From a virus: 32,345 nucleotides of DNA. The position numbers and the translations under genes were made by a program. The stretch covers positions 1-32,345 of the IMG/VR virus record IMGVR_UViG_3300042463_000322. The stretch is one strand, 5' to 3'. Every line of letters starts with the position of its first letter. The first letter of the stretch is position 1. Below the pieces are notes generated by a model, which saw only the letters and a program-made list of their open reading frames with translations, was not told the DNA's origin and did not search any database. Shown here one piece after another: positions 5,738 through 28,691 of the stretch.

Positions 5738-5738
5738 G

Positions 5739-5760
5739 GAACAAACTATCTATTATTATG
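5739..5760 (+). promoter_or_regulatory. GAAC-N8-TA start-site element, copy 3
   Basis: GAAC, eight bases, TATTATT and the ATG at 5758. It starts 2 bases after the terL stop codon TAG. Confidence 0.35.
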
Positions 5761-5988
5761 GAAGTAAAACGATTTATTTGTACTGATTGTGGTGAAATAG
5801 CACACGAAGTCAAGCAAAAACGGGGTGAAGTTTGTTTTAAATGCCACATTCGTGGCATTCGTATTGGTTTCACACACGGAAAAGAAGTCTTTAGTGGTCC
5901 TACAATTGGGGAAATCCAGCGTAAAACTGTGTCTGACGCTGCTGCCAATGGTATAACGGCTGAACCTGTCGGGACTCGTTGGATTTAA
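5758..5988 (+). CDS. Small zinc-finger protein
   Basis: 76 residues. C8-x2-C11 and C26-x2-C29 form a four-cysteine zinc ribbon (ICTDCGE and VCFKCHIRG). The C-terminal half (GPTIGEIQRKTVSDAAANG) is helical and ends in a conserved-looking GTRWI. Small zinc-ribbon proteins beside the large terminase are common in phages, but a function is not established. It ends exactly where the next gene begins (TAA then ATG), so it is probably translated with the following mini-genes. A packaging accessory role is inference from position only. Confidence 0.75.
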   Translation: MEVKRFICTDCGEIAHEVKQKRGEVCFKCHIRGIRIGFTHGKEVFSGPTIGEIQRKTVSDAAANGITAEPVGTRWI

Positions 5989-6186
5989 ATGGAATCGTGG
6001 CTTGTACCCATTTTGGTTGCCATTATTGGTGGTCCATTAATGGTTCTTATGCAGTTGTTGCGTAGGGAAAACTCAAGCCAACATAGTGAAGGTCGGGAAC
6101 TGCTTAATCGGGTAATATACAAGGTTGATGCAGTTGGAACAAAAATTGACAACCATATTGGTTGGCACGAAGGAAAAGAGAAATAA
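5989..6186 (+). CDS. Small single-span membrane protein (DUF2746-like, possible holin)
   Basis: 65 residues. Residues 4-24 (WLVPILVAIIGGPLMVLMQLL) are one hydrophobic span followed by a basic stop (RR). The rest is a soluble helix ending DNHIGWHEGKEK, which resembles the D-x-HI-x-WH ending of DUF2746-type proteins of actinobacterial phages. Such proteins often sit near lysis or structural genes, so holin or spanin-like function is possible. The nearest peptidase gene is 18 kb downstream, so lysis assignment stays open. The stop overlaps the next start by one base (TAATG). Confidence 0.7.
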   Translation: MESWLVPILVAIIGGPLMVLMQLLRRENSSQHSEGRELLNRVIYKVDAVGTKIDNHIGWHEGKEK

Positions 6187-6299
6187 TGCCAAAAGTTGGA
6201 AACAAAACATTTCCTTACACTGCTAAAGGTATGAAAGATGCTAAAAAGGCTGCTGTTGCAATTAAAACGGCTAAACAAAAGAAAGTGAAAAAGAAATGA
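6186..6299 (+). CDS. 37-residue basic mini-protein of a widespread phage type
   Basis: Short and easily missed. It starts MPKVGNKTFPYTAKGMKDAKKAA and ends in a lysine-rich tail (KQKKVKKK). The pattern M-P-x-V-x-x-x-x-F/Y-P-Y-T-x-x-G followed by an Ala/Lys helix recurs as a tiny gene in many phages near terminase and portal genes. The function is not known to me. One-base overlap with the gene before and 4-base ATGA overlap with the gene after show that it belongs to a tightly coupled row. About 14 of 37 residues are Lys, so nucleic-acid contact is plausible. Confidence 0.72.
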   Translation: MPKVGNKTFPYTAKGMKDAKKAAVAIKTAKQKKVKKK

Positions 6300-6496
6300 A
6301 GTTTAATATTACTCAGGAACAAAAGTGCGCTTTTGCTTCTTATGTCCGTTCATCTGCTGCAACCGTTCTGACGGTTGTGTTGGCTGGCGAAACCTCTCCC
6401 AAGGCTATTTGGGCTGCCATTACAGCAGCCTTTCTGCCTCCTGTGGTTCGCTGGTTGAACCCTAATGATGCTGCTTTTGGTCGTACAGTTAAATAA
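6296..6496 (+). CDS. Small hydrophobic protein, holin candidate
   Basis: 66 residues. A hydrophobic stretch from about residue 15 to 50 (SSAATVLTVVLAGETSPKAIWAAITAAFLPPVVRWL) could make two short membrane passes with a turn at GETSPK. It ends NPNDAAFGRTVK. The ending RWLNPNDxAFG resembles small membrane proteins in actinobacterial phages annotated as holins. Together with the membrane protein two genes earlier it may form a two-component holin, but this is inference. A 7-bp stem-loop (6360-6377) lies inside the gene. It overlaps portal by one base. Confidence 0.65.
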   Translation: MKFNITQEQKCAFASYVRSSAATVLTVVLAGETSPKAIWAAITAAFLPPVVRWLNPNDAAFGRTVK

Positions 6497-8190: not shown

Positions 8191-8206
8191 GGAACAACCT
8201 CCCTAT
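8187..8206 (+). other. Stem-loop at portal stop codon
   Basis: ATAGGGA (8187-8193) and TCCCTAT (8200-8206) form a 7-bp stem with loop ACAACC. The left arm contains the portal stop TAG. T6 follows only 14 bases later, so it is a weak candidate for termination or processing between portal and scaffold. Confidence 0.35.
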
Positions 8207-8247: not shown

Positions 8248-9033
8248 ATGAGCGAAGATTTCGCACCCATATCTGATGTAGAACCCGAAGGGTCAACTAG
8301 TTCCAGTGAGGATAGTCATATAGATGATAGCCCATCTTTGGATGTTGCAGAATACTCTAATTATAGAGTCCCTGTAAAATTTGATGGTGAGGAGCAGCAT
8401 ATTCCTCTTTCTGAGGCGATTGCTGGTTATCAACGACAGGCAGATTATACACGCAAGACGCAGGAATTAGCACAGCAGAGAGAATCTCTCAATTTTGCTA
8501 GTTCATTGCAGACAGCACTTGATAGTGACCCTGTTGCTACTCTAGAGTTGTTAAGCCGTCATTACGGCGTAACTTTAGGGCAAGCACAGCAATTGATAGA
8601 CTCTTCCTATGAAGAGGATATGGACCCTAGTGAGCGTAGAATCCGTGAGTTGGACCAGCGTTTGGCACAGTTTGAAGAGTATCAGTCTCAACAGCAGATT
8701 GAGAAAGAAATTTCCCGTTTGCAGGCTAGATATTCTGATTTTGACACAAATGAGGTTGTGCAGACTGCTTTACGCAGTAACTCAACCGATTTAGAAGCAA
8801 TATATAAGCAACTGGCTTTTGATAAAATGATGAAGCAGCGTGAGTTGGAAAGTCAAGCGCAACAGATTAAACAACAGAAGGAAAATTCTGTTGTTGAGGC
8901 TAAGCGTGAGGCTGGTGTAGTTTCTGGTGGCTCTTCGGCTACTGCGAGTACTACAACTGATGCTGTTGAACCTATTACTAATATTTCAGATGCTTGGATG
9001 ATTGCTAAAAGACAATTAAACGCTAATTTTTAA
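8248..9033 (+). CDS. Capsid scaffolding protein
   Basis: 261 residues, acidic and helical, between portal and major capsid protein, the usual scaffold position. The N-terminal 45 residues are disordered and rich in Ser, Asp and Glu. Residues about 45-75 (VKFDGEEQHIPLSEAIAGYQRQADYTRKTQEL) match the pattern seen in many phage scaffolds of the podovirus-like group. Residues 75-220 are coiled-coil rich in Gln and Glu (QQRESL, RIRELDQRLAQFEEYQSQQQIEKEISRLQ, KQRELESQAQQIKQQKE). A Ser/Thr-rich linker leads to a final helix NISDAWMIAKRQLNANF, likely the capsid-binding end. It would fill the procapsid and leave before or during packaging. AGGAG lies 9 bases before the ATG. Confidence 0.85.
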   Translation: MSEDFAPISDVEPEGSTSSSEDSHIDDSPSLDVAEYSNYRVPVKFDGEEQHIPLSEAIAGYQRQADYTRKTQELAQQRESLNFASSLQTALDSDPVATLELLSRHYGVTLGQAQQLIDSSYEEDMDPSERRIRELDQRLAQFEEYQSQQQIEKEISRLQARYSDFDTNEVVQTALRSNSTDLEAIYKQLAFDKMMKQRELESQAQQIKQQKENSVVEAKREAGVVSGGSSATASTTTDAVEPITNISDAWMIAKRQLNANF

Positions 9034-9055: not shown

Positions 9056-10024
9056 ATGCCAGCAGGAAACTCAAACTTTGATGCTATTCTTTCAACAACA
9101 CTTGCGAACTATCGTGACCAGTTGACTGATAACATCTTTACAGCACGCCCACTTACATACCACCTTATGAACAAGGGTCGTATTCGTATGCTTAATGGTG
9201 GTACCAAGATTGTTGAGCCTCTGATTTATGGTCAGAACTCAACTGTGGCTCCATACTCTGGTTACGATACGATTTCGTTGACACCACAAACTGGTATTTC
9301 AGCAGCAGAATTTGAATGGAAGCAGTACGCTGCTAGCATTGCAATTTCTGGTATTGAAGAGGCAAAGAACAACGGTGAGCAGGAAATCATTAACTTGCTT
9401 GAAGCCAAAATTATGCAGGCTGAAGAGTCTATGCGTGAAGGTTTCAACCAGATGTTCTTTGGTAACGGAACCGACACCCTTGGTGCTGGTGGTACAGACT
9501 CAGGTAAGTCTTGGAACGGTCTTGGAAACTTGATTGAATCAGGCAACACCGTTGGTGGTATCAACTCAGCAACTGGTCAGGATAATGACTGGTGGCGTTC
9601 GTACGAGGAAAACACTGCTGGTGCTTTGACCCTCGCACAAATGGCTACAGCCTACAACACTGTATCAGTCGGTAACGACCATCCCGATATGGTTCTCACA
9701 ACTCAAACATTGTTTGAGAAGTACGAGTCACTTCTGCAACCACAGGTTCGTTACACGGACACTGCGACAGCAAACGCTGGATTCCAGAACTTGCTGTTCA
9801 AGGCTGCGCCTGTAACTTACGATGTCCACGCACCTGCTGGCAATATGTTCTTTGTTAACTCAAAGTATATGTCACTTGTGGGTCACTCAGGTAAGTGGTT
9901 CTCCAACACGGAGTTCGTACGCCCTGAAAATATGGATGCACGCTACGCTTTGATTATGTGCTACGGTAACCTTACAATCCGTAACCGTAAGAAGCAAGGC
10001 AAGTTGACAGCCAAGACTGCCTAA
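9056..10024 (+). CDS. Major capsid protein (HK97 fold expected)
   Basis: 322 residues, right after scaffold, behind a strong ribosome site. The start NSNFDAILSTTLANYRDQLTDNIFTARPLTYHLMNKGRIRMLNGGTKIVEPLIYGQN is the N-arm and E-loop pattern of HK97-fold capsid proteins in podovirus-like and related phages. It is followed by the spine-helix region ISGIEEAKNNGEQEIINLLEAKIMQAEESMREGFNQMFFGNGT and P- and A-domain strands (PDMVLTTQTLFEKYESLLQPQVRYT; FKAAPVTYDVHAPAGNMFFVNSKYMSL). The C-terminus ends RNRKKQGKLTAKTA. No protease domain or gene is visible, so assembly probably uses an uncleaved scaffold. Codon use differs from the neighbours: C-ending codons such as AAC, ACC and TAC are frequent, as expected for a highly expressed gene. 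Confidence 0.9.
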   Translation: MPAGNSNFDAILSTTLANYRDQLTDNIFTARPLTYHLMNKGRIRMLNGGTKIVEPLIYGQNSTVAPYSGYDTISLTPQTGISAAEFEWKQYAASIAISGIEEAKNNGEQEIINLLEAKIMQAEESMREGFNQMFFGNGTDTLGAGGTDSGKSWNGLGNLIESGNTVGGINSATGQDNDWWRSYEENTAGALTLAQMATAYNTVSVGNDHPDMVLTTQTLFEKYESLLQPQVRYTDTATANAGFQNLLFKAAPVTYDVHAPAGNMFFVNSKYMSLVGHSGKWFSNTEFVRPENMDARYALIMCYGNLTIRNRKKQGKLTAKTA

Positions 10025-10049: not shown

Positions 10050-10073
10050 GGTGGGGGATGTATTTCCCCCACC
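10050..10073 (+). terminator. G-rich 9-bp stem-loop after the major capsid gene
   Basis: GGTGGGGGA (10050-10058) and TCCCCCACC (10065-10073) pair perfectly around a 6-base loop. It lies in the 75-base gap between the capsid gene and the first basic protein. There is no T-run after it (TAGTCTGAAATATT follows), so it may be a partial terminator or an mRNA 3' stabiliser lowering expression of the downstream genes. A 13-codon frame (ATG at 10048, behind AGAGGA) runs through it; I do not call it a gene. A similar stem occurs at 31764. Confidence 0.45.
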
Positions 10074-10099: not shown

Positions 10100-10801
10100 A
10101 TGGCTCCTAAACCTAAATTACCTATTGGTGATGACCTTGCAAGATTGCTGAAGTTGGCTTTGGCTGGTGTTAAAGGTCCAGCAAAAAAGGTTCAAGCAAA
10201 CCGTATTGTTGGCAAATTGGAATCAAAGGGTAACCCTGCTGTTTCTGGTATGCGTACTAAAGCAGGCAAGATGGAACAGCAACTTGTTCGTGGCAAAGTT
10301 AAGCGTCGTGAAGTAGGTAAAATTAAAGCAGATGCTGATGCACATATGCGTCGTATGGCTGAACAGGGTAAAAACTGGGATGGTTCTAAAATTAAAAAAG
10401 CAACGAAGCCCCGTAAGGCTGCTCCTAAGAGGAAGTTGACTGTTGCTGAACAGACTGCTGCTGCTGAACGCACTATTGCAAAGCGTGAAATGGATAAGAA
10501 AGTTATTAAAGCGCAAGAAAGAACTTTGAGGGCTACTCGTCTTGGCGATGCTGCTGCTGCTAAAGGCACCAAAAAGGGTCGTGGTGGTAAAGAAATTCCT
10601 ATGTCTAAAAAAGAAGTTAAAAAGGTTGTTCGTCAAGGAAATCTTGCTGGTTCGCAACGAGCAAAAGGTAATGCTACAAAGAAAGCAACTCAAATGAACC
10701 TTCAGGCTAGAATGCAGAATGCACCTGATGCTGCTTCTAAGCGTGCTGCAAGAAATAAGTTACGCAAACATCAAGATACACACGGAAACTTTCTAGGCTA
10801 G
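10100..10801 (+). CDS. Lysine-rich basic protein 1 of 5
   Basis: 233 residues with about 62 Lys or Arg and about 19 Asp or Glu, strongly cationic and rich in Ala. No family is recognised. The N-terminus has PIGDDLARLLKLALAGVKGP, an amphipathic helix with paired Asp that recurs in three of its four neighbours. The remainder consists of Lys/Ala helices and linkers (KRREVGKIKADADAHMRR, KKATKPRKAAPKRK), similar in composition to H1-type histones and mycobacterial HupB tails. AAGGA lies 9 bases before the ATG. Position directly after the capsid gene suggests a virion or assembly role, for example DNA condensation inside the head or binding to the acidic scaffold. This is inference from charge and place. 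Confidence 0.75.
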   Translation: MAPKPKLPIGDDLARLLKLALAGVKGPAKKVQANRIVGKLESKGNPAVSGMRTKAGKMEQQLVRGKVKRREVGKIKADADAHMRRMAEQGKNWDGSKIKKATKPRKAAPKRKLTVAEQTAAAERTIAKREMDKKVIKAQERTLRATRLGDAAAAKGTKKGRGGKEIPMSKKEVKKVVRQGNLAGSQRAKGNATKKATQMNLQARMQNAPDAASKRAARNKLRKHQDTHGNFLG

Positions 10802-10810
10802 GAGATTATT

Positions 10811-11242
10811 ATGAAACAACCAAATCCAAATCCTAAAAATGCCCTTCCTATCAAAAAATATCCTAAAAAAATGTTTAAACGCAGCGATACTGTGAGTGAG
10901 TATATGGATGACGAATCAACACGCAAAAAAACTCCTAGGAAGAAGTTGACTCCTCATACAACTCCAGAGCAAAGACGAACTTTAGAAAGACGACCATTGC
11001 CTAATGGTCGTGCAACTCCACGAGATAAACGAATTTTGCCAAGAGAGTTGACAAGTCCTACTGGTCGTGTAACTCCACGAGATAAACGAATTTTGCCACG
11101 CAAATCTAATATTATTGGTTCTACTGATTCTTTGAACACATCTCGCTTTGCTGGACCATTTAGAAACCCAAAGAATCTAACTGATTCTTTGGGTACAGCC
11201 AGTCCAGTTGCCCGTAAATATCGTAAACTAGGGAGTAAATAA
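10811..11242 (+). CDS. Lysine/arginine-rich basic protein 2 of 5, with internal repeat
   Basis: 143 residues, about 37 Lys or Arg and 12 Asp or Glu, also rich in Pro and Thr, so probably extended. A unit GRxTPRDKRILPR occurs at residues 66-78 and 85-97, and TDSLNT / TDSLGT occurs twice near residues 105 and 124. It is the only member of the cassette without the N-terminal DD-helix motif; it starts KQPNPNPKNALPIKKYPKK. A GGAG site lies 8 bases before the ATG, and the gene ends 2 bases before the next one. Function is unknown; a role with DNA or an acidic partner in the head is inferred. Confidence 0.7.
   Translation: MKQPNPNPKNALPIKKYPKKMFKRSDTVSEYMDDESTRKKTPRKKLTPHTTPEQRRTLERRPLPNGRATPRDKRILPRELTSPTGRVTPRDKRILPRKSNIIGSTDSLNTSRFAGPFRNPKNLTDSLGTASPVARKYRKLGSK
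11006..11101 (+). repeat. Tandem direct repeat within basic protein 2
   Basis: A 36-base unit starting GGTCGTG at 11006 recurs at 11063, 57 bases away. The two copies differ at one base (C/T at the eighth position), pointing to a recent duplication that kept the frame. Confidence 0.7.
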
Positions 11243-11244
11243 TT

Positions 11245-11718
11245 ATGGCTAAGCGTGGACCTGCAATCGGTGGTTTACATTCACAAGGTATTGTGGATGA
11301 TATTCTTATTCCTGTTGCTAAGAAAGTTTTTCGTGCAACAAAAAAGAATGCTTTAAATAAAGAAGTTGCAGTAATTGCTAAACGACACAAAACTTTAAGT
11401 GATGCACGGCGTGCTGGTGCTGTTAAAGAAGTGTACGGTAAAAGCGTAATTTCTCGTAAAGTTGGAAAAGCAAAAAGCACTTCTGCTGAGAAAAAACTTC
11501 GCAAAAATATGCAATCTGGCACTGAAACATCTAATTTTTATCGGAAAAATAAAGGGGACATTGGCTTGCCTACTACATATGCCCCTATTGTTCCAACTAA
11601 GAGCCGATTAACTACTATGCAGAATGAAAAACGAAAAGCAGCAATAGCAAAAATTGCAGCACAAAAAGCAGCAAAGGCTAACAGGCTTGCTCCTCCACGC
11701 CCACCTAAAAAGAAATAA
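11245..11718 (+). CDS. Lysine-rich basic protein 3 of 5
   Basis: 157 residues, about 39 Lys or Arg and 9 Asp or Glu. The N-terminal segment QGIVDDILIPVAKKVFRATKK carries the paired-Asp amphipathic motif seen in proteins 1 and 5 (and loosely in 4). The middle is Lys/Ala-rich. The C-terminus alternates Ala/Lys helix (KRKAAIAKIAAQKAAKANR) and PPRPPKKK, a histone-H1-like tail. Flanking gaps are 2 bases. The start context TAATTATGGCT is shared with several other genes of the module. No enzymatic motif is seen. It is likely a partner of the other basic proteins. Confidence 0.7.
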   Translation: MAKRGPAIGGLHSQGIVDDILIPVAKKVFRATKKNALNKEVAVIAKRHKTLSDARRAGAVKEVYGKSVISRKVGKAKSTSAEKKLRKNMQSGTETSNFYRKNKGDIGLPTTYAPIVPTKSRLTTMQNEKRKAAIAKIAAQKAAKANRLAPPRPPKKK

Positions 11719-11720
11719 TT

Positions 11721-12149
11721 ATGGCTGCTAAAAAACCACAAGATTTGCGTGACATTATAAATGCAGCAAACAAACTGTTTAGCAAGCCGTCACCACGAGG
11801 TGCTACGGCGCAGGCTAGTGCTGTTGTGTCACGGGCGCAGAATGTTAGCAACAAAAGCACACAAGCAGTTGCTAAAGGTAGCAATAAAGCAGTCGCAGGT
11901 ATGACTTCTACAATGAAGTCACAACTTGGTGACCCTAGTAAGGGTTGGAAAGATGTTGCATCAAAAAGTGGTGTGTGGCTTATACCTTATGGTAAAGGTT
12001 ATAAACTTGTTAACAAGGCTATAAAAGGTGCTAAATACTACAAATCAGCGAAGGCTGCTCGTGGCGCAGTTAAAGGTGCCATAGTTCTTGGTGCAGACAC
12101 GGCTTTAAATACTGGTGTAAATAAACTTCCTAGTGGAAAGAAACCTTAA
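11721..12149 (+). CDS. Lysine-rich basic protein 4 of 5
   Basis: 142 residues, about 26 Lys or Arg and 5 Asp or Glu, rich in Ala, Ser and Gly. The N-terminal helix PQDLRDIINAANKLFSKP resembles the paired-Asp helix of its neighbours but has D-L-R-D instead of DD. Residues 75-135 are more hydrophobic (GVWLIPYGKGYKLVNKAIKGAKYYKSAKAARGAVKGAIVLG), an amphipathic region that could bind membrane or protein, which makes a role in DNA ejection conceivable. Gaps to both neighbours are 2 bases. Confidence 0.68.
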   Translation: MAAKKPQDLRDIINAANKLFSKPSPRGATAQASAVVSRAQNVSNKSTQAVAKGSNKAVAGMTSTMKSQLGDPSKGWKDVASKSGVWLIPYGKGYKLVNKAIKGAKYYKSAKAARGAVKGAIVLGADTALNTGVNKLPSGKKP

Positions 12150-12151
12150 TT

Positions 12152-12943
12152 ATGGCTAAGGGAAAACCAGCAATCAACATCCCTCTTGATGATATTGCAA
12201 AACTAGCAAAAAGTTTAACCAAAAAATTTGGTGCTAAAACCTCTAAAAAAATACTGTCAGGTATGACAACCAAGCGTGCAGGTATGGAATATTATAAGCA
12301 ATACCCAATTAACTCGTACCTAAAATACCCCACTTCTCCTGTTACAAAACCAGCCAAAAAGGCTGGTGCTGCTGTAACTAAAGCAAAGCCAAAACCCAAG
12401 GTTAAACCACAGTCTGATATTCCTACTTCTAAGCCTAGTGCTGGTATGAAACCTAAGAAGCCCAAGACTTTGTCCAAGCCTTCTAGACCTAAGAGGGATT
12501 ATATTCCTAAGGGTAAAACTATGGCGCAAACTGCTGCTGAGCAGCGTGCAGCGCAAAGGCGTGCTAATCAGATTCTTCGTCGTACTGGTGATGCCCCTAC
12601 GCCTCGCCCAAGGGGTTCGGCTGTAGAGCCATCTAATGTTCGTGGGTCTATTATTCAGCCCCCTCGTAAGGCTACTATGCGCCCTCCTAAGCCGTCTAAA
12701 GCGTCTTACGAGGCTGATGCACTTAAGGCTGAGATTCGTGCCGATATGAATAAGTTTGGGCGTGGACAGAAGCCGAAGGGTGGGAAGCGTAAGCCTCCTC
12801 CTCCTGCTGGTGGTGTGGCTGCTAAGAAGCCTAAGAGTCCTAAGAAGCCGTCGGGTGGTGCTGCTGCTCGTAAGGCTGAGTATGACGCTATTAAATCTGC
12901 CCTTTCTAAAGCCAAGGCTAGACAGAGGGTTGGTGTTAAATAG
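12152..12943 (+). CDS. Lysine/proline-rich basic protein 5 of 5
   Basis: 263 residues, about 67 Lys or Arg and 14 Asp or Glu, very rich in Lys, Pro and Ala. The N-terminal motif INIPLDDIAKLAKSLTKKFGAKT is the clearest match to basic protein 1. From residue about 65 it is largely KPK, PKK and PSK repeats, like histone tails, with short helices (TAAEQRAAQRRANQILRR, ARKAEYDAIKSALSKAKARQR). Such sequence should be disordered until bound to DNA or an acidic surface. It ends in TAG whose G opens the fifth GAAC element, so the cassette seems to end here. Confidence 0.72.
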   Translation: MAKGKPAINIPLDDIAKLAKSLTKKFGAKTSKKILSGMTTKRAGMEYYKQYPINSYLKYPTSPVTKPAKKAGAAVTKAKPKPKVKPQSDIPTSKPSAGMKPKKPKTLSKPSRPKRDYIPKGKTMAQTAAEQRAAQRRANQILRRTGDAPTPRPRGSAVEPSNVRGSIIQPPRKATMRPPKPSKASYEADALKAEIRADMNKFGRGQKPKGGKRKPPPPAGGVAAKKPKSPKKPSGGAAARKAEYDAIKSALSKAKARQRVGVK

Positions 12944-12964
12944 AACAAATTACTTATTAGTATG
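12943..12964 (+). promoter_or_regulatory. GAAC-N8-TA start-site element, copy 5
   Basis: GAAC, eight bases, TATTAGT and the ATG at 12962, with the same 22-base span as the other copies. It marks the boundary between the basic cassette and the connector genes. Confidence 0.4.
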
Positions 12965-13225
12965 AGTAATTCTGGTTCTATTTCTTCGCACGCCCTTGTT
13001 GGTTCTATTCCTGCACATTCGTTGTATGGGGAACCTGTTTATGGTCAACGCCCTGCTGGTGAGGGTGAGAATTCTACTTTGGCTGCTGCTTCTGGTCCTT
13101 ATTTGGGGCGTGGTAATAAGTGTTCGGCTAAAGAGGATACTTGTGAGGGTATGCGTGTAAAGGATGAGGTGTTGTGTATGGGGCATCTTCGTTCGTCTAA
13201 GAAAGTGGTGAAGGATGGCGTATAA
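12962..13225 (+). CDS. Small Cys/His-motif protein before the adaptor
   Basis: 87 residues. The first half is Ser/Gly-rich and flexible. The second half has C54, C61, C72 and H75 in NKCSAKEDTCEGMRVKDEVLCMGH, suited to binding one zinc. Small proteins with this CxnC...CxxH pattern occur in structural regions of other phages without a known job. It overlaps the adaptor gene by 11 bases, implying coupled translation and perhaps a head-completion role. It has no signal peptide or membrane span. Confidence 0.65.
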   Translation: MSNSGSISSHALVGSIPAHSLYGEPVYGQRPAGEGENSTLAAASGPYLGRGNKCSAKEDTCEGMRVKDEVLCMGHLRSSKKVVKDGV

Positions 13226-13934
13226 GGCTATGACGGCAGCCGATATTCGGTCTGCCGTTCGTTCTATAACTGATTTGGATTCTACTGATTTGTCGGATTC
13301 TTTGTTGGATTTGTATATTCGTGATGGTTACTACCGTATTTTGGATACTGAGAAGCGTTGGTCGTTTTTAGAGTATTCGTTTGATTTCAGTACCCGTACT
13401 GGTGTTCGTGCGTATGAATTGTCCACGCTAACTGATGAACCTATGGGGCAAATTTCTAGTATTATAGATAATCGTGGTACTGGTTACCGTATGGATATGA
13501 TTGGCTTTGATATGGCTGAGCAAACCTATACTGGTTCGTACGACACTAATGCTGACCCTTTGTTTTATGCTTTGTGGGGTGGGTCTATTCATTTGTATCC
13601 AAAGCCGAACAATGTTCGGACTTTGGTTGCTCGTGGTTATCGTGAACCGTTGGATTGGCAAACTGAAGGTGGCGATGTTGATGCTATTCCTAGTTTGCAT
13701 TTCCCTCTTGTTTATTATGCGTGCAGTCGTGTGTATCAGCAACTTGAAGATACTGCTATGGCTCAAATGTATAAGGGTGCTTTTGATGAGGGTGTGGCTT
13801 TGGCTGTTAAGAATGCGACGACACCTAATAGTCATAACCTTATGCGTTTGAACGCTGGTCAAACCGAGAACCGACCTACCTATAATGGTTGGATTCGCTC
13901 TTTGGGTAGTAGCCGTTCTAATTGGGGTTTGTAA
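13215..13934 (+). CDS. Head-to-tail adaptor (connector) protein
   Basis: 239 residues. The N-terminal helical pattern MTAADIRSAVRSITDLDSTDLSDSLLDLYIRDGYYRI and the strand region WSFLEYSFDFSTRTGVRAYELS are typical of phage adaptor proteins that dock under the portal. Next come SGSYDTNADPLFYALWGGSIHLYPKP and a C-terminal helical hairpin (PLVYYACSRVYQQLEDTAMAQMYKGAFDEGVALAV), as in the gp6/gp4-like adaptors of podovirus-type particles. It lies between capsid and tail genes, the expected place. A 12-bp stem with one bulged base (13599-13626) sits inside the gene. Confidence 0.78.
   Translation: MAYKAMTAADIRSAVRSITDLDSTDLSDSLLDLYIRDGYYRILDTEKRWSFLEYSFDFSTRTGVRAYELSTLTDEPMGQISSIIDNRGTGYRMDMIGFDMAEQTYTGSYDTNADPLFYALWGGSIHLYPKPNNVRTLVARGYREPLDWQTEGGDVDAIPSLHFPLVYYACSRVYQQLEDTAMAQMYKGAFDEGVALAVKNATTPNSHNLMRLNAGQTENRPTYNGWIRSLGSSRSNWGL
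13599..13626 (+). repeat. 12-bp bulged stem-loop in the adaptor gene
   Basis: CCAAAG plus CCGAAC (13599-13610) pairs with GTTCGG (13614-13619), a bulged A at 13620, then CTTTGG (13621-13626). The loop is AAT. Its geometry equals that of 14701-14728: 28 bases, 3-base loop, one bulge on the 3' arm. Confidence 0.5.
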
Positions 13935-26724: not shown

Positions 26725-27621
26725 CTAGGTTGTATAAACCCGTTGAACAAGTTTATCAATCTCTAGTTCCATATTTGGGCGTAAATGGTATTTACCCCAA
26801 CGCTGGTCAGCAGACATAATCACAATCTTGGTTTCACTAGGGTGCAGTCCTGACCTGACTAGTTCGTGAGCAAGGCGTGCAAGGGTTCGTGAACGGTCAT
26901 TGTTAGGCAATGGACCGTCACGCCATATGACATAAGCCAATGGTGATACACGCTTCATAATCTCTTTGAAGTCGTCAGATTCAGGATGGTCTGTGACCAT
27001 ACTGAAGTCAGGTTGTGGTGGCTTATAATAAGTTGCCAGACGAGCAATCGTGTCTGGAGAATTAAGGTTGGCTTCTGCCATATCTAGGAACTGTTCCAAC
27101 GCTACGGCTGTGCCGTCTGCGTTGATTATACGCCGATTAGCCTTAGACATATCTGCATAGTTCGGATATGGAAGTCGCACATAGTTGCCGTACTGCATTA
27201 TGGATGTGAGTTGCTCCTGCTTAGGGTTCACCTCACGAGCAGGGTAGTCTGCAACCTGATGCGCTGCGAGCATCATACGACGCATATCGCTAGCAAGCAC
27301 TGGCTCACTAGCAAACACCCAACAGTGGTAACCTTTGCTACGAGATTTCTCTACGAATGCGTGGACACCACCAGCCTCTAAGGCTTCTCGCAGATTGAAC
27401 GCACCAGTCATATCTTCTATGTCAATGTCCGAGCATCCCCATACGGTGTACCAGTCGCCTTTGAGTGGCACCATTGGGTACACACCGATAGGTGTGTCAC
27501 CTGACAGGTGAGCGTCAAACACTTCACGAGTCAAAGGCATCTTTATGCATCCACCTGTTTCTGAGCCGTAAACATCTCCACGACCACGAAACAGTTTTAT
27601 AAATCTATCTGTTGTGTTCAT
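26725..27621 (-). CDS. Archaeo-eukaryotic primase (TOTE-type PrimPol)
   Basis: 298 residues from the ATG at 27621, which shares the A of the helicase stop (TGATG); a TTG 12 bases upstream is less likely. The primase catalytic core is visible: D65-I-D67 in GCSDIDIED, then SRSKGYH99-C-W101 (the S-x-x-x-G-x-H-x-W motif), and VNPKQ near 131-135, all typical of the AEP domain found in TOTE conflict elements and phage primases. It would make primers for the helicase-loaded fork, perhaps also with polymerase activity. The C-terminal 100 residues are helical (NNDRSRTLARLAHELVRSGLHPSETKIVIMSADQ). Two adjacent stem-loops at 27480-27511 and two bulged ones at 26775-26800 and 26893-26918 lie in the gene. 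Confidence 0.85.
   Translation of the reverse strand: MNTTDRFIKLFRGRGDVYGSETGGCIKMPLTREVFDAHLSGDTPIGVYPMVPLKGDWYTVWGCSDIDIEDMTGAFNLREALEAGGVHAFVEKSRSKGYHCWVFASEPVLASDMRRMMLAAHQVADYPAREVNPKQEQLTSIMQYGNYVRLPYPNYADMSKANRRIINADGTAVALEQFLDMAEANLNSPDTIARLATYYKPPQPDFSMVTDHPESDDFKEIMKRVSPLAYVIWRDGPLPNNDRSRTLARLAHELVRSGLHPSETKIVIMSADQRWGKYHLRPNMELEIDKLVQRVYTT
26775..26800 (-). repeat. 11-bp bulged stem-loop in the primase gene
   Basis: On the mRNA strand TTGGG plus GTAAAT pairs with ATTTAC, a bulged G, then CCCAA. The loop is ACC. The design (3-base loop, single bulge on the 3' arm) repeats that of 13599 and 14701. Confidence 0.45.
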
Positions 27622-28691
27622 CAGTAATCCCAATCGTCAGCGAGAACTAATTGTTCAGGTTCAGGTTCAGACAATGTCGGTATCGTGCCTAGATGCCCTG
27701 TGGGTAGCCGTGTCAGACGACCTGTGCCTTCTTCAATCTCAAAGTCCACATCATCCATAAGTCTAGATGAGGGGCGTTTACATTTGACAAGGTTGATTGT
27801 GACCGTGTTTTGGTGGATACGCAAGTCATAACGCAACGCATCCAGCCGTTCCAGCAGGCGTTCCGTTTGGTTAGACTTATCCAGTCGTTCCTCTAATTCA
27901 CGGATGTGGTTCTCAATCTCAAACTTCTTACGGCGTACACCTATAATGTGGGTCGCTTGTTGCTCGCCACCATAGGCACCTGATGAGATTGTTTGCTTTT
28001 TGCCGTCTGCACCAGCAGTACGGCTAGATTGATGCAACACAATCATAGGGATATTATGGCGTTTACCGAACGCTTTTATGGTGTTCGCCTTAGACGGAAT
28101 GTCCTCGCCTCCACCACTGAGCAAGTCCAAGTAGTCAAAGACAAGCAACGAGGGTTGTCCCCACATATCACGGATTTCACCAAGTGCTTGTTCCATTTCG
28201 TTGAGGGTCATCATTTGGTCAAAGACAGCCAACTGAGGAAACGATTCGTTTGCTGTTTCACGAAGCAACTTGATTGCTTCGGGGTCGTTGTCTGCGATAC
28301 GCATTTCCAGTTCGTGGGCATCTATGCCGTGCATAATGCAGGTCAGTTTTATGAGTGTCAAGGTGCGTGGTTCGTCAGGGCAGAAATATACCACAGGTAG
28401 ATTTCTGTTTGCCAACAGGATTTGTAGAAGCAACATAGTTTTACCTGAATGGCTATAACCGTTTATCATACATAACTCTGATGGGGCTATGCCACGCATC
28501 TCGCTATCTAAATCAGGGAAGCCTAGATAGACTCGTTCGTTTGGGTTTTGCGCCCAATGAACAAAGTCGTCGGCAGCGACTTCCAGTGGTTCATAATAAT
28601 GTCGTTTTTTTGAGGCGTTAGACACATCAGGCGTGGCGATTATCTCGCCACGCCCAAGTGCGTTCCAACGCTCCGAGTAATTCGGAGTCAT
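27621..28691 (-). CDS. DnaB-like replicative helicase
   Basis: 356 residues. RecA-type ATPase core: Walker A GYSHSGKT at 78-85, Walker B LLVFDYLDLL with D186, a sensor H220-Q221 in VLHQSSRTAG, and the downstream GAYGGEQQATHIIGVRRKKFE, matching the DnaB C-terminal domain region. No N-terminal DnaB domain is present; residues 1-55 are a short leader instead, so interaction with primase may differ from the bacterial system. It unwinds DNA at the fork and is directly coupled to the primase gene. Near the start codon a perfect 10-bp stem-loop (28630-28654) lies in the coding sequence. AAAGGA stands before the ATG. Confidence 0.9.
   Translation of the reverse strand: MTPNYSERWNALGRGEIIATPDVSNASKKRHYYEPLEVAADDFVHWAQNPNERVYLGFPDLDSEMRGIAPSELCMINGYSHSGKTMLLLQILLANRNLPVVYFCPDEPRTLTLIKLTCIMHGIDAHELEMRIADNDPEAIKLLRETANESFPQLAVFDQMMTLNEMEQALGEIRDMWGQPSLLVFDYLDLLSGGGEDIPSKANTIKAFGKRHNIPMIVLHQSSRTAGADGKKQTISSGAYGGEQQATHIIGVRRKKFEIENHIRELEERLDKSNQTERLLERLDALRYDLRIHQNTVTINLVKCKRPSSRLMDDVDFEIEEGTGRLTRLPTGHLGTIPTLSEPEPEQLVLADDWDY
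28630..28654 (-). repeat. Perfect 10-bp G-C-rich stem-loop at the 5' end of the helicase gene
   Basis: GGCGTGGCGA (28630-28639) pairs with TCGCCACGCC (28645-28654), loop TTATC on the + strand. On the mRNA it lies 37-61 bases after the helicase ATG. Confidence 0.6.

Follow-up and report, generated by a model that had tools for sequence, protein, structure and literature searches.

A cassette of five consecutive genes for highly basic proteins lies directly downstream of the major capsid protein (MCP) gene in the genome of an uncultured phage, IMGVR_UViG_3300042463_000322. The IMG/VR record, taken in its entirety (32345 bases, 35 called genes), is referred to here as the window. We propose, as an evenly balanced proposition, that the cassette encodes optional, rapidly exchanged internal head proteins: DNA-binding cargo that would be packed with the genome and probably delivered to the host. 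More tentatively, and with rather less than even confidence, we suggest that it represents a modular head-cargo system of abundant podovirus-type phages, unrelated in sequence to those of T4 and P1, in which a common head-targeting tag (MA-KKPAI..GI-DD-I..K) would be joined to changing basic effector bodies encoded in two head-gene slots, with no prohead protease.

An earlier note, made from the letters of this genome, had described five consecutive genes directly after the MCP gene. This arrangement was confirmed, with gaps of 9, 2, 2 and 2 bases between the genes:
10100..10801, + strand: B1, 233 amino acids (aa), net charge +43, core gene, tagged N-terminus MAPKPKLPIGDDLARLLKLAL; family alignment A3.
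10811..11242, + strand: B2, 143 aa, net charge +25, accessory gene without a DD tag; found in the closest relatives only.
11245..11718, + strand: B3, 157 aa, net charge +30, from the family whose tag is strongest (MAKRGPAIGGLHSQGIVDDILIPVAKKV); conserved at the N-terminus but not in the body.
11721..12149, + strand: B4, 142 aa, net charge +21, core gene, degenerate tag MAAKKPQDLRDIINAANKLF; family alignment A2.
12152..12943, + strand: B5, 263 aa, net charge +53, core gene, tagged N-terminus MAKGKPAINIPLDDIAKLAKSL; family alignments A1 and A4.

The earlier counts of Lys+Arg against Asp+Glu in these proteins (62/19, 37/12, 39/9, 26/5 and 67/14) proved exact. B1–B5 hold the five highest net charges among the 35 called genes, the next being +12, and the probability that the top five would be adjacent by chance is 31/C(35,5), or ~1e-4. 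The proteins have isoelectric points of 10.5–11.4, sum to a net charge of +172 for one copy of each, and are helical and Lys/Ala/Pro-rich, with a composition like that of histone H1. The cassette genes evolve fast yet are still coding: the ratio of non-synonymous to synonymous substitution rates (dN/dS) among close relatives is 0.20–0.66, compared with 0.06–0.10 for the MCP gene. That these values lie below 1, and that B1, B4 and B5 can each be aligned within a family showing conserved motifs, leads us to regard B1–B5 as truly coding. The motifs include a C-terminal module in B1 (LQxxxxxAxxxxxKRxARxxLRxHQxxxGxF), a conserved stretch in B4 (GDPxKGWKDVAxNSxxWLIPYGKxxKxVxxxVKGAKxxK) and another in B5 (PVDVRGSIIxPPxKATMRPxKPSxxSYEAD). 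For the collection scan A1 and A2 proved too divergent, and narrower alignments took their place. The AlphaFold2 model of B1 (predicted local distance difference test score, pLDDT, 74) is extended and helical with a beta-hairpin, its C-terminal half being confident; the B4 model was uninformative (pLDDT 45).

The cassette is bordered by two genes of the window:
9056..10024, + strand: Mx8-type MCP, 5′ border of the cassette (PHROG phrog_9953, E 1.3e-71).
12962..13225, + strand: g87, 3′ border of the cassette, encoding a small protein that contains Cys; kept in relatives with and without the cassette.

The interval from the MCP gene to g87, here called the slot, was read in 80 related loci with MCPs 84–100% identical to that of the window, and was found to span 74–3312 bp and to contain 0–6 open reading frames (ORFs). 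Slot ORFs of ≥60 aa, dereplicated at 80% identity (n=75), were compared with 437 other ORFs. The median net charge per residue was +0.176 in the slot and −0.007 elsewhere, and a ratio of net charge to length ≥0.12 was reached by 95% of slot ORFs versus 6.4% of the others (Mann–Whitney p 4e-35, uncorrected for relatedness). What the slot conserves is a property, basicness, and not a sequence. The core order B1–B4–B5 recurs in the sub-lineage of the window (e.g. L022, L057, L064 and L072), with B2- and B3-type genes coming and going, and a second sub-lineage carries untagged, repeat-rich basic slot proteins. The suggestion that a multi-component basic set is tied to the head genes is supported, in that slot and composition recur in almost all close relatives with an occupied slot and an N-terminal tag is shared, but not in the sense of five fixed proteins. 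Nor is the cassette kept as a block of five, a check that the earlier note had proposed: B1, B4 and B5 recur and the slot stays basic, but B2 and B3 can be replaced, and between 0 and 6 such genes are present.

Empty slots occur among close relatives (L032/L033, L044, L050 and L080/L081). In one branch (L041:1892, L053:2648 and L065:4425) the basic set is replaced by one larger, near-neutral protein of 288–468 aa and of no known family, which is possibly a different cargo, and L064 has one neutral extra gene in the slot. The idea that the large, less basic slot proteins of L041, L053, L065 and L047 are long relatives of B4 was unsupported (hhalign probability 1%). On a tree of the stabilisation protein most tagged genomes fall together, and the untagged-basic and empty states are scattered over other branches; the labels on this tree are automatic and rough, L034 and L035 being scored as tagged through a chance DD, and L047 and L048 as empty although a single protein of 92/35 (or 92/33) occupies their slot.

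The slot lies between the MCP and connector genes, and a second slot adjoins the portal gene. At least nine relatives (L005, L007, L011, L014, L016, L018, L019, L024 and L042) carry basic genes with the same N-terminus in this second position:
5738..6495, + strand: position of the second slot in the window, from large terminase to portal, with small neutral genes only and no basic gene.
L005:2785, L011:516, L014:5139, L016:1316, L018:594, L024:2206 and L042:551: tagged basic genes of the second slot.

A separate group of small basic proteins adjoins the small terminase gene on the opposite strand (L216:8846-9124; G005 36743-37936, − strand; L070:1-1100). These proteins show the motifs GYNKPKRTPxHPTKSHIVVAK and SKGGKPGQWSARKAQLLAQ, and one of them has a match to phrog_7595 and a weak one to a minor head/DNA pilot family.

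The tag, with a consensus of approximately MA-(K/R)KPAI...G-I-x-DD-I..K, is found at the N-terminus of otherwise different slot proteins, among them B3, B1 and B5 (listed above) and proteins of L011 (MAAKKPEGLKDDIAEAIWRQL) and L014 (MAPRKPQGFVDDAVKAAIKAL). Within the B3-like family, the mean identity over 171 pairs is 43% in the first 42 residues and 16% in the remainder, and the N-terminus is the better conserved part in 167 of the 171. A profile of these 42 residues was run at a cut-off of 7 bits on proteins outside the B3-like family, where it matched 15 of 96 other slot proteins, each time at the N-terminus, and none of 480 proteins encoded elsewhere; when the slot proteins were shuffled, five times over, it matched 0, 0, 0, 1 and 0 of 96. 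All ten matches with E≤0.0014 were slot proteins. At the other end, the B1 and B5 families have a helical module in common, [V/I]..AKTP..KR.AR..LR (profile–profile E 2.9e-5), which a single B5-family member, from L018, matches with E 1.6e-5:
L018:6999, L022:12159 and L056:3165: C-terminal module shared by the B1 and B5 families.

The sharing of this module suggests duplication or domain exchange within the cassette. Because both the tag and the B1/B5 module recur, we consider the cassette to be modular, with common ends and changing middles.

A sister group was reached via the metagenome-assembled genome (MAG) contig L125, the MCP of which is 56% identical to that of the window. It added 80 loci, 47 of them non-redundant and with both borders present, and all 47 lack a basic cassette: the interval between the MCP and gp4 genes holds one small g87-type ORF, or none was detected. 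At the corresponding position, Mx8 and related prophages and phages encode neutral proteins in those cases in which the reading frames were called confidently. As the sister group and the outgroups do without it, the cassette is a feature of the lineage of the window and is not needed for this head type; the 47 sister genomes, together with L032, L044, L050 and L080, indicate that it is dispensable for building this particular head.

The location among head genes and in a late-gene neighbourhood, the tag carried by varying basic bodies, the rapid evolution and the dispensability together match the internal proteins (IPs) of phage T4, and it is on this combined likeness that the reading as optional head cargo is founded. 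According to this model, small and very basic proteins would be made late, together with the capsid, and the common N-terminal tag would draw them into the assembling head, where their basic bodies would be packed with the DNA. The cargo would probably be delivered with the DNA into the next host, where it would protect or organise the arriving DNA or act against functions of the host. Among the four roles listed in the earlier note, that of co-ejected proteins acting on host or incoming DNA fits best; head decoration is conceivable, but nothing points to it.

Several observations weigh against the cargo model. The tag is absent from B2 and from most basic proteins of the second sub-lineage, and the slot N-termini could be common through gene duplication instead of targeting. 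No relative whose function or structure is known was found for B1–B5 in Pfam, PHROG, PADLOC or PDB. No match to a prohead protease family was found among the searched proteins of the window and of contig G002, a search that did not take in every ORF; if the tag does target heads, removal of the tag in the manner of T4 is therefore probably missing.

That the five proteins belong to no recognised family was borne out, since none of them matched PHROGs, Pfam or PADLOC. Profile searches of PDB with B1, B4 and B5 returned no relative, B1, B3, B4 and B5 had no match among the INPHARED phages at 0.01, and the B1 model matched nothing among PDB structures at E≤1; its single viral structure match was the uncharacterised protein A0A6J5MZD7. 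None of the five matched histones, HU, H-NS or any other known DNA-binding family in Pfam or PDB, the likeness being compositional only. Homology to IPI, IPII, IPIII or the T4 capsid targeting sequence (CTS) was likewise not detected in Pfam, PHROG or PDB, the last of which presumably covers the solved T4 IPI. PADLOC, which covers defence families only, and Pfam revealed no antirestriction or defence domains in B1–B5, and no homology to Dar proteins was found.

Of the competing explanations, the one that survives best, though we consider it unlikely, is that B1–B5 are unpackaged and bind nucleic acid inside the cell late in infection (phage concatemers, the host nucleoid or RNA), their N-terminus docking to a phage or host partner. 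Packaging is so far a prediction, a very basic composition would suit the binding of any nucleic acid, and the sister group lives without the cassette. However, both slots lie strictly among head genes, between terminase and portal and between MCP and connector, rather than in the region of early or replication genes.

It is less probable again that the set is a viral chromatin with the main task of condensing the packaged genome or neutralising its charge, in the manner of adenovirus V, VII and mu. The summed charge of the five proteins and their H1-like composition agree with such a role, and the adenovirus pVII and pVI N-terminal peptides on the inner hexon wall resemble a tag joined to a basic body (PMC8156859). 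Against this, relatives with 84–87% identical MCPs lack the set, as does the sister contig G009, which at ≥40.9 kb is longer than the 38–39 kb of cassette-bearing contigs, so that condensation is not a need of this capsid. Variation in sequence and copy number exceeds what a structural role would suggest, and adenovirus VII is itself not required for packaging (PMC5491326). DNA condensation as a necessity of the head, one of the earlier options, is weakened by these relatives and by a sister group whose contigs are as long or longer, and a genome-length need for charge neutralisation was rejected as a necessity on account of G009.

We would give a slightly lower probability to accessory factors of head assembly that bind the acidic scaffold, line the inner shell during assembly or decorate the shell. 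The cassette lies beside the MCP gene and that of the scaffold:
8248..9033, + strand: acidic head scaffolding protein, net charge −22, Lys+Arg/Asp+Glu 25/47 (phrog_3927, E 8e-11).

In T4, moreover, IPIII contacts the core and head assembly is slower on its loss (PMC9026906). Yet the scaffold of G009 is equally acidic (23/47) without a cassette, and the hypervariability of the cassette is unlike that of parts which must fit MCPs that are 96–99% identical. The earlier option of scaffold neutralisation is weakened accordingly, there being no correlation between cassette and scaffold charge. Finally, an ordinary ‘moron’ insertion hot spot, whose occupants have composition alone in common and no common function, would accommodate the many unrelated-looking occupants and the untagged, repeat-rich basic proteins of the second sub-lineage, but is very improbable given that 95% of occupants are strongly basic, that the tag profile finds slot proteins outside its training family and none elsewhere, and that the core B1–B4–B5 order is kept.

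The earlier note had also seen the cassette as set off by a stem-loop and a GAAC element:
10050..10073, + strand: stem-loop GGTGGGGGA-loop-TTCCCCCACC, 3′ of the MCP gene; present in nearly all relatives examined.
12943..12964, + strand: GAAC element preceding g87; the window has four close copies in all (67-88, 623-644, 5739-5760 and 12943-12964).

Both exist, but neither is specific to the cassette. The stem-loop is kept after the MCP gene whether or not basic genes come next (equivalent position in L004, L012, L044, L050, L080, L135 and L144), sometimes with a T-run (L026-L034), and is probably an attenuator or terminator of the MCP mRNA that belongs to the MCP gene. The GAAC pattern, GAAC-N4-T-N3-TA(N)TA(N)T, stands directly before the ATG of four genes, with two further weak copies at 8192 and 9169; at ≤2 mismatches it has 7 matches against 0.95 expected, the pattern having been derived from the same sequence. 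Many relatives have TAGAAC(A/G) upstream of g87, and the element may be a phage promoter. Since the stem-loop also occurs in relatives without a cassette, and the GAAC element precedes three other genes of the window, the two are not borders of the cassette. The relative G002 has a gene for a protein of 107 aa that gives a sigma region 4-like match.

The genes of the window indicate a short-tailed phage of podovirus type with an Mx8-like MCP, which is 31–41% identical to the MCPs of Myxococcus phage Mx8 and ct52p938; an uncultured podovirus sampled at Manatee Spring has a homologous MCP. The + strand carries, in order, the small terminase subunit (86), tail-related and collagen-like genes, large terminase (4136), portal (6496), acidic scaffold (8248), MCP (9056), the five basic genes (10100-12943), g87 (12962), a gp4-like gene (13215), a stabilisation/internal virion protein (13935) and a tail fibre gene (15578), as well as genes for large proteins, one of them 1766 aa long. 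The gp4-like gene comes after g87:
13215..13934, + strand: gp4-like head/connector structural protein (phrog_399, E 2.4e-4).

A collagen-like protein with GPTGPTG repeats is encoded near the terminase (980-2011), and an archaeo-eukaryotic-type primase (AEP-TOTE) adjoins a DnaB-like helicase (26725-28691, − strand). As to the host, matches in genome collections were limited to distant prophages or MAG contigs.

The phage group is common, with at least 600 matches in each of two scans; such basic proteins are not mentioned by Kavagutti et al. If the cargo model is true, a CTS-like cargo system exists outside the large myophages, and the tag becomes a sequence handle for predicting packaged and injected phage proteins. 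The tag would also allow an exchanged effector repertoire to be traced, and perhaps heads to be loaded with chosen proteins, and it would become testable why near-identical capsids go with six such proteins or with none.

The closest known parallel in organization is provided by the T4 IPs, which are basic, packaged in the head at ~360 copies, DNA-binding in vitro and dispensable, and which bear N-terminal CTSs of 10–19 residues and are poorly conserved between relatives; IPI counters a host restriction enzyme (PMC9026906). Like IPI, IPII and IPIII, the cassette comprises several small basic proteins from head-associated genes, variable and dispensable, with a short common N-terminus on divergent bodies. 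The present system differs in the sequence of the tag, the bodies, the podovirus type, a separate scaffold, the lack of a visible prohead protease and the location of the genes between MCP and connector; the T4 proteins are packaged, whereas packaging of the cassette proteins is a prediction. The Dar system of P1 (DarA, DarB, DdrA, DdrB, Hdf and Ulx) is likewise a multi-component protein cargo tied to head assembly, and the N-terminal 30 residues of DarB suffice for head targeting (PMC9024508). P1, however, has a giant anti-restriction protein, whereas the products of the cassette are small and strongly basic and showed no anti-restriction domain in a scan of defence families. In adenovirus, N-terminal peptides of pVII and of the lytic pVI bind the inner hexon wall, and VII coats the DNA (PMC8156859). 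Adenovirus V, VII and mu, with the lytic VI, thus share with the cassette several very basic proteins accompanying dsDNA, and N-terminal peptides on the inner capsid wall; but the virus is unrelated, a protease cuts its peptides and its set is conserved, unlike the hypervariable and often absent cassette. The head module of Mx8 has a homologous MCP (31%) and the same order of portal, MCP, small protein(s) and tail/connector protein, but the genes that follow the Mx8 MCP gene (p49 and p50) encode neutral rather than basic proteins.

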